Assembly: GCA_964023275.1 (NCBI GenBank)
Contig: OZ029929.1
Coordinates: 4,387,381 to 4,451,380, forward strand
Direction: 5' to 3'
DNA from: Norana najaformis
Lineage: Eukaryota; Annelida; Clitellata; Crassiclitellata; Hormogastridae
DNA: 64,000 nt
A program made the translations under genes and the position numbers. This document shows, piece by piece, positions 8,439-41,990 of this stretch (its first letter is position 1; every line of letters starts with the position of its first letter). Under the pieces are notes generated by a model. It searched no databases. It had not been told where the DNA came from and saw nothing but the letters and a program-made list of their open reading frames with translations.

Positions 8439-8444
8439 TTTATT
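8439..8444 (-). promoter_or_regulatory. Possible polyadenylation hexamer for the receptor gene
   Basis: AATAAA on the minus strand about 590 bases past the receptor stop codon and beyond the 46-bp array. It is the only support for a 3' end here, and such hexamers are common by chance in AT-rich DNA. Confidence 0.2.
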
Positions 8445-8559
8445 TACTAGTCGCAGGAATCAGTTTCTCTTGGCCACACCTGAACCTCTGGGCCAGTCGT
8501 GCGAAAGGGTTCTCAGATTGGTCGCAGGTGCTTTTTGCTCAATGAAGGCCTTAAAACTT

Positions 8560-9085
8560 TTTTTTCGTCTTTAAAAAATTCTCCTGAAGGCTTGAGATTC
8601 TATTTTTGGCTCTACTGGGAAGAGAACTTTTTGGCTGTCCACAGATCCTCCTTGCTCGCAGTGAGAAGAGAATTCTCCTCACAGTCTCATTGACCCTTTT
8701 ATCGTCGTGGAAAGAGAATATCTGCGGATGCCTTCAAAATCTCTTTGCTCGTAGTGGAATAAAAATCTCTTTGTTCGGCGTGGAAAGAGAATTCTCTGGA
8801 AGGCCTCAAAATCTCTGTTCGGCGTGGAAAGAGAATTCTTTGGAAGGCCTCAAAATCTATTTGTTCGCGTGGAAAGGGAATTCTCTGGAAGGCCACAAAA
8901 TCTATTTGTTCGGCGTGGAAAGGGAATTCTCTGAAAGGCCTCAAAATCTATTTGTTCGGCGTGGAAAGGGAATTCTCTGGAAGGCCACAAAATCTATTTG
9001 TTCGGCGTGGAAAGAGAATTCTCTGGAAGGCCTCAAAATCTATTTGTTCGGCGTGGAAAGAGAATTCTGTGGAAGGCCTGTCGGA
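8560..9085 (-). repeat. 46-bp minisatellite overlapping the 3' end of the receptor gene
   Basis: Seven near-identical units of 44 to 46 bp occupy about 8775-9080, each with a GAATTC core (gtggaaagagaattctctgg). More diverged units reach back to about 8560. The unit nearest the gene is coding: it supplies receptor residues from helix 8 to the stop codon at 9033. In the same frame downstream units read EAFQRILFPRR, against QAFHRILFPRR in the gene. Because 46 is not a multiple of three, downstream units shift frame. Confidence 0.93.
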
Positions 9086-11642
9086 AATCGCGGTTAAATA
9101 TGGTGTATATGATTGGGTTGAGGGCCGAGTTGCAGTACCCGAGCCAGAAGATGACGGCGAAGAGCTTGTTCGGGAGCTGAAGGCCGACGAGAAGGGTGAT
9201 GGGGTAGAGGGAGAAGAAAGGCAGCCAACATCCGACGAACGATGCCATGACGATGCCAAGGACAACGGTTGCCCTGCGTTCCCTCGACCGTGCCATCTTG
9301 CGTTTCATCTTCTCGACATCTTTTACCCCGTTGGCGCGAGGGTTGGAGCAGCGACGCGTGACCGACGACATGCATGAGCGACGATTTGACGTCGCAGAAC
9401 GGCGACGCTCTGAGCGAGAGGATGCTGCTGCTGCTGCTAATGTTGCAGAGTAGGACGATGCAAAGGAAAGGCTCTTCGGAGGCACGGAAGCACTGACGGT
9501 GCCTAGGGATGTGGGGCCTCGACGCGCTTGGTTGATTCGCTGCGATCGAACGCGGACAGAAGCAACGGCTGATTGATGGACAACGTATGGAGGTGCAACG
9601 GATGATGCAACATCAGATGAATGAACAACAGGTGAAGCAACAACGGATGAAGGTGCAACAGATGAATGGACAACGGATGACGGAATAACTGGCGAATGGA
9701 AAACAGTTGAAGCAACAACGGGTGAATCTATAACGGATGACCAGATAACTGATGGAGCAACATCAGATGAATGGACAACGGATGAAGCAACATCAGATGA
9801 ATGGGCAACGGATGAAGCAACATCAGATGAATGGACAACGGACGAAGCAACATCAGATGAATGGACAACGGATGAAGCAACATCAGATGAATGGACAACG
9901 GATGAAGCAACATCAGATGAATGGACAACGGACGAAGCAACATAAGATGAATGGACAACGGATGAAGTAACATCAGATGAATGGACAACAGATGAAGGAA
10001 TAGCTGGCGAATGAACAACAGTTGAAGAAACGACGGATGAAGTAAACTTGGACGAAGGACTAACAGGAGACGGAAGAGCGGAGAACGTCAGCGCAGTTGA
10101 CGGATCGCATCCCTCTGGACTCGGCGTCGACGGAGAGACAGATTCGATGGTCACCTGAGCGACTTCCGGTTCGACTTCAATCTCTTCCGGTTCCTCAGAA
10201 CGAAGCTGCGTTGGCCGGAGCGACTCGGAACTCAATTCCCGAGTGGGACTGAGCCGGTCCACAGCGTTCTTCGCCTTTCCACGCGGATTCGTGGTTGAGG
10301 TACTCGATGTGGTGGTGGCTGGTGTCGTCGTGGTACTGGAGCAGATCGATTTGCAGTGGTTCTCCTCCACCGGATGATGAGCCTTTCTGAGGTTCTTACG
10401 GGCGCGGTTTCTGGCGGCAAGGTAGATCTTCAGGTAGACCATCACCATGACAACGAGGGGCAAGTAGAACGACCCAATCGTCGAGTAGATGACGTAGCCG
10501 GGTTCCTCGCTGAGCCCGCACAGCGGATAGCCGAACTTGTTCGGCTGGGGGCGTTTCCATCCGACGAGGGGTGGCAGGCTGATGATCATCGACATGACCC
10601 AGACTGCACCAATCATAAGCACGGCTCGCCTCTTGGTCCGCTGGCGCACGTAGCTGACCGCCCTAGTTATCGACCAATAACGATCGAGACTGATGAGGAC
10701 GAGGTTTAAGATCGAAGCCGTGCACAGAAGGACGTCCGTCGCCAGCCACAGTTCGCACATAACATTCCCGAAGGTCCAGTAGCCCATCAGTTCGTAGGAC
10801 AGGGACAGCGGCATTATGAAGAGACCCACGAAGAGGTCGCTCAGCGCCAAAGACGTTATGAACCAATTTTGGATTCCGCTCAGGTTGCGGTCCCTGGCGA
10901 CGGCCACGATCACCAGGACATTGCCAAGGACGATCAGCAGCATTATCGCCGTCACCACCACCGAAGCCACGACGATGTGCGCCCAACCGTAAAGGCTCGG
11001 GTACGGGTAGCCCTCGAGGGGGTCGACGAACCCAGGCGCCCCGGGCCCCAAAGCGGGGTTGCCGTTGCCGTAGAAGCCCCAGTCGTCCGTGTCGTTCCAG
11101 GTCGTCGTGTCGTTGAAAGGTGACGACAAAGATGACACGGGGGCACTCGACCGGAACCACTCAGTTACCGATTCGGTCGAGTGGAACGTGGAAGGCACGT
11201 TGGAAGGCAATCTCGCAGCAAATGAAGCGGAACCAGAAAGGCGCGATAGCTCTACTTCCGGTTCTAGGGAACCTTCGCTCGGCCACGCTTTTGTACCGGA
11301 AGTACCCAATTCTTTGACGCTCGTAATATCGCCTTCCGTTACCATCGAACTATCCTTGAACATAGTAGTACCATCAGCCGCAGATCTAGTAGAATCTTCT
11401 GTTAAGTTGTTAGCAAGAGAAGTCGAAATACCTCTTTTTAGAAAGATGGTTGCGCCATTGTCTGCAAAGGCAGTAATACCACTTTTCGTAAGGTCGCCAG
11501 TAGCTTTATCAGTCGTCGCCACAAATGCACTGTCAGCTTCCGCCACCATGGTAATACCTTTATCGGTCTGGAAGATATTATGTTCCATAGACGTCCCCAC
11601 AACGCTTGAAACTACCGGTTGCAGTTGTCGTTCGCCGTACAT
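9033..11642 (-). CDS. Intronless class A amine GPCR, alpha2-adrenergic/octopamine-like
   Basis: A plasma-membrane receptor for a biogenic amine, 869 residues from the first in-frame ATG at 11642 (G at -3; the frame stays open upstream to a stop at 11757-11759 but has no ATG). Numbering from that Met: helix 1 about 222-248, Asp269 (2.50), Cys296 and Cys375 for the extracellular disulfide, amine-binding Asp303 in LATDVL (3.32), DRY at 320-322, Ser387 and Ser391 at 5.42/5.46 for catechol or phenol hydroxyls, CWLPFF at 805-810 with Tyr813, and NPIIY at 842-846. Helices 6, 7 and 8 (FWLGYCNS, YTIFNRDFRQAF) resemble alpha2-adrenergic receptors most, which are also intronless. The N-tail is long (about 220 residues), Ser/Thr-rich, with N-glycosylation sites at 79, 177 and 183. 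Loop 3 is about 375 residues and repeat-bearing. Coupling to Gi is expected from the family. The exact ligand (octopamine, tyramine, noradrenaline) cannot be read from the sequence. Confidence 0.95.
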   Translation of the reverse strand: MYGERQLQPVVSSVVGTSMEHNIFQTDKGITMVAEADSAFVATTDKATGDLTKSGITAFADNGATIFLKRGISTSLANNLTEDSTRSAADGTTMFKDSSMVTEGDITSVKELGTSGTKAWPSEGSLEPEVELSRLSGSASFAARLPSNVPSTFHSTESVTEWFRSSAPVSSLSSPFNDTTTWNDTDDWGFYGNGNPALGPGAPGFVDPLEGYPYPSLYGWAHIVVASVVVTAIMLLIVLGNVLVIVAVARDRNLSGIQNWFITSLALSDLFVGLFIMPLSLSYELMGYWTFGNVMCELWLATDVLLCTASILNLVLISLDRYWSITRAVSYVRQRTKRRAVLMIGAVWVMSMIISLPPLVGWKRPQPNKFGYPLCGLSEEPGYVIYSTIGSFYLPLVVMVMVYLKIYLAARNRARKNLRKAHHPVEENHCKSICSSTTTTPATTTSSTSTTNPRGKAKNAVDRLSPTRELSSESLRPTQLRSEEPEEIEVEPEVAQVTIESVSPSTPSPEGCDPSTALTFSALPSPVSPSSKFTSSVVSSTVVHSPAIPSSVVHSSDVTSSVVHSSYVASSVVHSSDVASSVVHSSDVASSVVHSSDVASSVVHSSDVASSVAHSSDVASSVVHSSDVAPSVIWSSVIDSPVVASTVFHSPVIPSSVVHSSVAPSSVVASPVVHSSDVASSVAPPYVVHQSAVASVRVRSQRINQARRGPTSLGTVSASVPPKSLSFASSYSATLAAAAASSRSERRRSATSNRRSCMSSVTRRCSNPRANGVKDVEKMKRKMARSRERRATVVLGIVMASFVGCWLPFFSLYPITLLVGLQLPNKLFAVIFWLGYCNSALNPIIYTIFNRDFRQAFHRILFPRRTNRF
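9756..9995 (-). repeat. In-frame 30-bp coding repeat in receptor loop 3
   Basis: Eight tandem 30-bp units encode the decapeptide SSVVHSSDVA (residues 550-629). They are followed by diverged copies up to about residue 683. All units are multiples of three and stop-free in the coding frame, so length changes would keep the receptor intact. The reverse strand is also open, as an artefact. Confidence 0.95.
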
Positions 11643-11651
11643 ACCTTTCTC

Positions 11652-11756
11652 AAAGTGGTATCTGCTACTAGAAATGACAATAGTACTAGAAATGACAACA
11701 GTAATCTGTGGCAACTGTAACAAGTGGTATCTGCTACTAGAAATTACAACAGTACC
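11652..11756. repeat. Short direct repeat at the 5' end of the receptor gene
   Basis: A segment of about 35 bp (aagtggtatctgctactag...) occurs at 11654 and again at 11722, 68 bp apart, just upstream of the first ATG. Confidence 0.8.
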
Positions 11757-39902: not shown

Positions 39903-39974
39903 TGGACTCCTTCCAAAATTTGTCGCCGGCATTAAAGTAGATCTTCGACCACCTGCTTTGGTTGACCTGTTGTC

Positions 39975-41565
39975 TGCCTCCCTTCGACCTTTCGTCTGTT
40001 TCTCGTCTAATCGTCATCTGCTTCCCTTCGTCCCATCGTTTGCATTCCTTCGACCCGTCGTCTGTTTCCCTTCGACCCGTCGTCTGTTTCCCTTCGACCC
40101 ATCGTCTGCTTCCCTTCGTCCCATCGTTTGCATTCCTTCGACCCGTCGTCTGTTTCCCTTCGACCCGTCGTCTGTTTCCCTTCGACCCATCGTCTGCTTC
40201 CCTTCAACCCGTCGTCTGTTTCCCTTCAACCCGTCGTCTGTTTCCCTTCGACCCGTCGTCTGTTTCCCTTCGACCCATCGTCTGCTTCCCTTCGTCCCAT
40301 CCTTCGCATCCCTTCGACCCATCGTCTGTTTCCCTTCGACCCATCGTCTGTTTCCCTTCGACCCATCGTCTGTTTCCCTTCAACCCGTCGTCTGTTTCCC
40401 TTCGACCCATCGTCTGCTTCCCTTCGACCCATCGTCTGCTTCCCTTCGTCCCATCCTTCGCATCCCTTCGACCCATCGTCTGTTTCCCTTCAACCCGTCC
40501 CCTGCCTCCTTTCGACCCATCGTCTGTTTCCCTTCAACCCGTCGCCTGCCTCCCTTCGACCCGTCGTCTGTTTCCCTTCGACCCATCGTCTGCTTCCCTT
40601 CGTCCCATCCTTCGCATCCCTTCGACCCATCGTCTGTTTCCCTTCGACCCATCGTCTGTTTCCCTTCGACCCATCGTCTGTTTCCCTTCGACCCATCGTC
40701 TGCTTCCCTTCGTCCCATCGTTTGCATTCCTTCGACCCGTCGTCTGTTTCCCTTCGACCCGTCGTCTGTTTCCCTTCGACCCATCGTCTGCTTCCCTTCA
40801 ACCCGTCGTCTGTTTCCCTTCAACCCGTCGTCTGTTTCCCTTCGACCCGTCGTCTGCTTCCCTTCGTCCCATCCTTCGCATCCCTTCGACCCATCGTCTG
40901 TTTCCCTTCGACCCATCGTCTGTTTCCCTTCGACCCATCGTCTGTTTCCCTTCAACCCGTCGTCTGTTTCCCTTCGACCCATCGTCTGCTTCCCTTCGAC
41001 CCATCGTCTGCTTCCCTTCGTCCCATCCTTCGCATCCCTTCGACCCATCGTCTGTTTCCCTTCAACCCGTCGCCTGCCTCCTTTCGACCCATCGTCTGTT
41101 TCCCTTCAACCCGTCGCCTGCCTCCCTTCGACCCGTCGTCTGTTTCCCTTCGACCCATCGTCTGCTTCCCTTCGTCCCATCCTTCGCATCCCTTCGACCC
41201 ATCGTCTGTTTCCCTTCGACCCATCGTCTGTTTCCCTTCGACCCATCGTCTGTTTCCCTTCGACCCATCGTCTGTTTCCCTTCAACCCGTCGTCTGTTTC
41301 CCTTCGACCCATCGTCTGCTTCCCTTCGACCCATCGTCTGCTTCCCTTCGTCCCATCCTTCGCATCCCTTCGACCCATCGTCTGTTTCCCTTCGACCCGT
41401 CGTCTGTTTCCCTTCGACCCATCGTCTGTTTCCCTTCGACCCATCGTCTGTTTCCCTTCAACCCATCGTCTGTTTCCCTTCGACCCATCGTCTGTTTCCC
41501 TTCGACCCATCGTCTGCTTCTCTTCGACCCATCGTTTGCATCTCTTTGTCCCATTGTCTGCCTCC
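39975..41565 (+). repeat. 22-bp satellite array, about 70 copies
   Basis: The unit cttcgacccatcgtctgtttcc (22 bp) varies at a few positions (acccg/accca, gtttcc/gcttcc, cgtccc, cctttgca). Variant units such as cgtcccatccttcgc recur at about 40287, 40447, 40597, 40867, 41017, 41167 and 41347, giving a higher-order period near 150 bp (about seven units). The unit has no stop in any plus frame, and since 22 is not a multiple of three each frame cycles through all three phases. This yields overlapping open frames of more than 500 codons that I do not call genes. Confidence 0.95.
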
Positions 41566-41990
41566 CTGTGACGTGTATACTTTGTCGTTTGTGCAGTGTA
41601 CGTGCCGAACGTCACGTAGTGTCGACGCGCTTCCTTTGTCGTACGTTCCACAAAATCTCGTCGCCGCCTTGGTTTCAATGCCTCCCTCGTCGCTTGTATT
41701 GGAGCGACGTATGGAGCGCCGTGCAACTATGGAGCGCCCTCCGGTAAACTACTGCGATTTTTCTCTTTTTGTCGGTCGGGAAGGAGGAGGCTTCTGCCGC
41801 TTTCCGACGCATTCCTGCAGTGTTTTGAGCGACCTATTACGACATTAAGCCTCGAGAAACAAGAGAAACAACGGGATTCGTGTCTTTGTACATGCGCGCC
41901 GACCGTTTCCGGTTTAAGCGAGATTGTGAGACATTTGTTGCCAGTATGTCTTATACGCGAACATTGGTTAACATAGATTTGTTATATATG
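41566..41990. other. Unassigned stretch after the 22-bp array
   Basis: Repeat-derived frames run into this region and stop by about 41848. No domain is seen. Confidence 0.35.

Follow-up and report, generated by a model that had tools for sequence, protein, structure and literature searches.

Does a tandem array that contains the end of a gene descend from that gene, or does the gene owe its end to the array? This question is raised by a 46-bp repeat at the 3′ end of a receptor gene in a 64,000-nucleotide stretch of Norana najaformis DNA (hereafter, the window). The ORF list places the receptor frame in one piece at 9033..11723 on the minus strand, with 896 aa counted from a TTG; this start is putative, and the first in-frame ATG is codon 28. 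The frame matches Pfam 7tm_1 (E 1.3e-67), carries LDRY in TM3 and NPxxY in TM7, and has amine receptors among its solved relatives, the best being the 5-HT1A and alpha-2A adrenergic receptors, which together mark it as an amine-type class A GPCR. Judged from its sequence, the receptor could be either alpha-2/octopamine-like or 5-HT1-like, and an amine ligand is predicted. Its C-terminus reads NPIIYTIFNRDFRQAFHRILFPRRTNRF and is followed by a TGA stop codon at 9035-9033 (minus strand).

Minisatellites are head-to-tail arrays with units of roughly 10-100 bp, and the array studied here, with its period of 46 bp and its 12 units plus a partial one, belongs to this class. TRF reported it at 8762-9079 (period 46, 7.0 copies, 93% match), and wrap-around alignment to the unit consensus extended it to 8544. 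The first-pass annotation was thus right that an array is present, but its far end lies at 8544 rather than at 8560. The same annotation had taken the last coding segment of the receptor for the first 46-bp unit, and this proved exact: unit 1 runs from 9078 to 9033 (9033..9078, minus strand) and consists of one base, the last 14 codons (AFHRILFPRRTNRF) and the stop codon, with most of helix 8 inside it. Units 2-7 (8760..9032, minus strand) are near-identical non-coding copies that agree with the consensus at 42-45 of 46 positions. They are followed by the truncated unit 8, units 9-12 and a partial 13th unit (8544..8759, minus strand), all of which are decayed and older. Counted from the gene, units 1-7 match the consensus at 45, 45, 45, 43, 44, 42 and 44 of 46 positions (91-98%), unit 8 at 24/46, and units 9-12 at 32/47, 29/46, 32/49 and 33/46 (63-72%); conservation of the array therefore falls with distance from the gene. 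In all five stretches of the distal array that were tested, the real alignment score exceeded those of all 100 plain base shuffles, for instance 94 against a shuffle maximum of 21 at 8440-8760, and 36 against 22 at 8440-8600.

Downstream units do contain the reading EAFQRILFPRR that had been reported from them at first pass. The copies were also described there as lying outside the CDS and shifting frame; indeed, units 2 onward lie beyond the stop codon, and with a period of 46 each unit displaces the frame by one base. Among the changes that units 2-7 carry are CTC to CCC (Leu to Pro), one 1-base deletion, one 2-base deletion and three lost TGA stops. Because of these frameshifts, lost stops and the Leu-to-Pro change, units 2-7 show no sign of coding constraint, and on the same grounds the array was rejected as a protein-coding repeat. 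When the genome (608 Mb, 17 contigs) was searched with a 27-base unit pattern at up to three mismatches, all seven matches fell in the array, with the reservation that this pattern is blind to the decayed units 8-12, so that strongly decayed copies elsewhere would escape. A DNA search of the genome that used the array as query found two matches, both inside it. The finding that had been named beforehand as telling against a gene-derived array, namely the same unit dispersed in the genome, was thus not encountered by searches that would miss decayed copies, and a dispersed satellite was rejected within that limit. Rfam gave no match anywhere in the window.

The first hexamer past the stop codon that resembles a polyadenylation signal (AATAAA/ATTAAA) is an AATAAA at 8439..8444 on the minus strand. 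Since it lies beyond the array, the 3′UTR probably consists mostly of the array, and units 2 onward are probably non-coding 3′UTR sequence. Conceivably, the array could have been selected as a functional 3′UTR element, an RNA structure or binding platform that regulates the receptor mRNA. Its probable location upstream of the first AATAAA would suit such a role, as would the self-complementary AGAGAATTCTCT in some units and the folding of the 318-nt array RNA, which was somewhat better than that of shuffled sequences (z -2.76, 1/100 shuffles as good), although folding scores are possibly inflated by repeats. However, the distal units are decayed and the array is absent from the seven close paralogues of the receptor, and we regard a selected regulatory element as very unlikely.

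These seven paralogues, which are 60-68% identical to the receptor up to TM5, bear directly on the order of events. In a tree of 16 receptors, in which L008 was poorly cut, the window gene and the seven paralogues formed one group (100/100), within which L009 was not firmly joined to the window gene. TRF detected no 46-bp array within these seven genes or close to them, and all seven carry F-R-x-A-F at the same place in helix 8. The earlier statement that helix 8 is conserved among related receptors therefore extends to receptors that are free of the array. Closest in the helix-8 stretch is L009 (RQAFHKILFRR), which agrees with the gene at 28/36 bases and with the array consensus at 27/36; its codons read CGA CAG GCT TTC CAC AAA ATT CTC TTT, compared with CGA CAG GCC TTC CAC AGA ATT CTC TTT in the window. 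A count over the 36 bases puts L008 and L009 one base closer to the gene than to the array and L005 and L006 one base closer to the array than to the gene, with L004 and L010 equally distant from both; in five of the six paralogue sequences other than L009, the gene is favored over the array by at most one base. The His codon CAC is common to the gene and L009, whereas units 2-7 have CAG (five units) or CAA (one unit) at this position. In the older part of the array, unit 9 reads CGC and has the last base of the gene's codon without the codon itself, and the remaining older units differ.

The shared His codon represents one site in one paralogue, and the shared helix-8 codons carry more weight than this single site. 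Because the array-free paralogues share the coding sequence and the gene appears to have kept the older letter, the comparison points from the gene to the array. The end of the receptor gene is thus the likely source and the array the product, a reading that rests on the paralogues and was already put forward at first pass; the helix 8 of the paralogues, the CAC of L009 and the restriction of the unit to a single locus all speak for it. Accepting this direction, we infer that an empty ancestral site preceded the array, and an array-free orthologue would be expected to end in AFHRILFPRRTNRF-stop, followed by GGCCTTCATTGAGC-like sequence. The reverse order would have a pre-existing array capture the end of the receptor as the frame ran into the repeat. 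In its favor, the paralogues have nothing that corresponds to the TNRF tail of the window gene, and another receptor gene, L045, has its last codons (NNHAPVVPV) inside a 28-bp array, so that capture would be possible in principle if these codons are unconserved. Yet the AFHRILF of unit 1 is the helix 8 of array-free paralogues, in the same place and frame, and the His codon of the gene agrees with L009 and not with units 2-7. We therefore consider a capture most unlikely.

Taken as a whole, the explanation that the minisatellite was born from the end of the gene has, in our estimate, a probability of about 0.88. A founding direct repeat is presumed, with one arm, AGGCCTTC, on the gene-side edge of the array (9072..9079, minus strand) and the other, of the same sequence, at its far end, within the partial last unit (8544..8551, minus strand). 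The window holds seven exact matches to AGGCCTTC against 1.3 expected, and five of the seven fall inside the array. The pair falls within the 5-10 bp of a Haber-Louis type founding repeat, with the qualification that the far copy, which lies in the decayed region, could be a chance match. According to the proposed mechanism, the segment between the two direct repeats would have been duplicated as in the direct-repeat slippage model. The first copy would have kept the frame and the stop codon, leaving the protein unaltered at any duplication length and the array free to expand. Judging from this anatomy, the length of the duplication would not need to be a multiple of three, because translation ends at the stop in the first copy. 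Repeated slippage or unequal exchange may subsequently have produced new units next to the gene and kept them homogeneous as the far side decayed, which would account for the observed gradient. Unit 1 itself is presumably under selection as the helix 8 of the receptor, as conservation among the paralogues suggests.

Two published models of minisatellite origin can be compared with this locus, as they are outlined in PMC3389668. In the first (Haber and Louis 1998), direct repeats of 5-10 bp lie on either side of the segment, and the array resembles it in that an 8-bp direct repeat flanks the unit. In the second, the last unit is incomplete (Taylor and Breden 2000), which in general also applies here. 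The first model fits better, since the last piece of the array covers 13 columns of 46, which is too little under the 10% cut applied to incomplete last units in PMC3389668. In contrast to both models as described in that source, the founding segment at this locus is the end of a CDS with its stop codon. The array is mechanistically ordinary and cleanly illustrates a type of event that is already known. Its origin is nevertheless unusually readable, as a likely source, a likely founding repeat, a gradient of decay and a reason for tolerance come together at one locus and its paralogues. Among the titles returned by a small search of the open-access literature, none concerned a minisatellite that derives from a gene and includes its stop codon, and no priority is claimed.

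Gain or loss of units beyond unit 1 leaves the receptor protein unchanged. At first pass it had been suggested that slippage could alter the C-tail; this is possible, but in silico joins indicated that only breakpoints inside unit 1 would do so. Specifically, joining unit 1 to unit 2 or unit 4 removed the stop and added 13 or 15 residues with Cys first (RFCGLPENSLSTPNK; RFCGLPENSLSTRTNRF). A join to unit 3 retained the length, with a Leu-to-Pro exchange possible in helix 8, and with unit 7 the tail became longer and had other residues; for units 5 and 6, the deletions that they contain made the registration of the joins no more than approximate. That the array serves as a reservoir of alternative receptor C-tails through exchange between unit 1 and later units is scarcely credible in spite of the extended or substituted tails obtained in silico, as many of the variants would bring Pro into helix 8 or yield unrelated tails, and the assembled allele has retained the codon common to L009.

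Stop-including tandem arrays were also found in other receptor genes of this genome. With a period of at least 10, they were present in 5 of the 108 GPCR genes examined, a subset of the listed GPCR places: 4/34 in the first sample, whose places were located through their similarity to the window receptor, 1/39 in the second and 0/35 in the third. Dropped before these counts were L014, L026 and L047 (no suitable frame), L027 (the same gene as L009), L087 (a doubtful frame, with no stop-including array there), and L092, L093, L096 and L117 (no NPxxY by the pattern used). Apart from the window gene (L003) with its 46-bp array, the close paralogue L010 has a perfect 13-bp two-copy duplication that includes PF-stop (494-519; G000:C3 near 40275840, minus strand) and looks like the first step toward an array of this kind. 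L029 carries a 78-bp array of 3.2 copies repeating TCDIR-stop (431-684; G000:C10, about 30169540-30169790; gene on the minus strand), and its relative L030 ends in SCNIR-stop without an array, from which a gene-to-array direction is suggested for L029 as well. In L045 and L064, arrays of 28 and 60 bp, respectively, start in the last receptor codons and include the stop. As in the window gene, the repeated unit in all four genes spans the final codons together with the stop codon, but the unit lengths are different. In L124, an array touches the stop codon without including it.

The excess in the first sample (4/34 against 1/74 in the others) gave a Fisher p of 0.03 in a test made post hoc. In the window, tandem repeats cover 21% of the bases, and those with a period of at least 10 cover 12%; given the latter figure, 5 stop-including arrays among 108 genes (5%) need no special cause. 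When the first two samples were pooled, repeats with a period of at least 10 covered 19% of the 300 bp after the stop codon and 9% of the next 300 bp (61 of the 73 genes had enough sequence; one-sided Wilcoxon p 0.009). This excess was not repeated in the third sample, where coverage was 9% versus 7% (33/35 genes, p 0.31). As the excess of the pooled samples was absent from the third, we do not claim that stop codons are repeat hotspots.

The periods of the arrays followed a different pattern at gene ends than within the coding sequence. Among the TRF rows lying wholly inside receptor frames, 11 of 12 had periods divisible by three, the exception being a 22-bp period in L108; these 11 rows came from five genes, with several rows for single arrays. 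By contrast, three of the five stop-including arrays had periods not divisible by three (46, 13 and 28, as opposed to 78 and 60). This pattern fits the idea that a duplication which includes the stop codon is tolerated whatever its length. More broadly, gene ends might be a general cradle of minisatellites, in which units not divisible by three arise as they hardly can elsewhere in coding sequence, repeatedly so in the GPCR genes of this genome and each time leaving a store of alternative C-tails; we regard this generalization as doubtful. The present case also yields a simple rule, testable in annotated genomes: stop-including arrays would be expected to ignore the three-base period and internal coding arrays would not.

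Arrays of related kinds are known behind or within other genes of amine signalling. For DAT1/SLC6A3, titles cited in PMC8096271 refer to a 40-bp 3′UTR VNTR, which is likewise a tandem array located behind a gene of amine signalling and has units about as long as those of the 46-bp array; polymorphism is reported there, whereas the present array is known from a single assembly. For DRD4, PMC3164202 describes a 48-bp VNTR in exon 3. Its counterpart, as far as that description goes, is not the 46-bp 3′ array but an in-frame 30-bp coding minisatellite of the window gene (9596..10031, minus strand), whose 10-aa repeat, SSVVHSSDVA, lies in the third intracellular loop and resembles the human DRD4 loop repeat in position. 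TRF found no counterpart of this loop minisatellite inside the seven close paralogues, and the open frames of these paralogues comprise 595-677 codons compared with about 900 in the window receptor. For the function of the receptor, the loop minisatellite may be of more interest than the 3′ array.

Further repeats and duplications were observed in passing. L009/L038, the nearest paralogue in helix 8, has a 52-bp array of its own (3.8 copies) at 49-248 bp past the stop codon, in the presumed 3′UTR. The paralogues L006 and L007 (G000:C14) are near-identical receptor gene copies situated side by side, about 11 kb apart. Finally, positions 39972-41567 of the window hold a 22-bp array of 72 copies (GTCTGTTTCCCTTCGACCCATC), in which long open frames on both strands are probably artefacts of the repeat.
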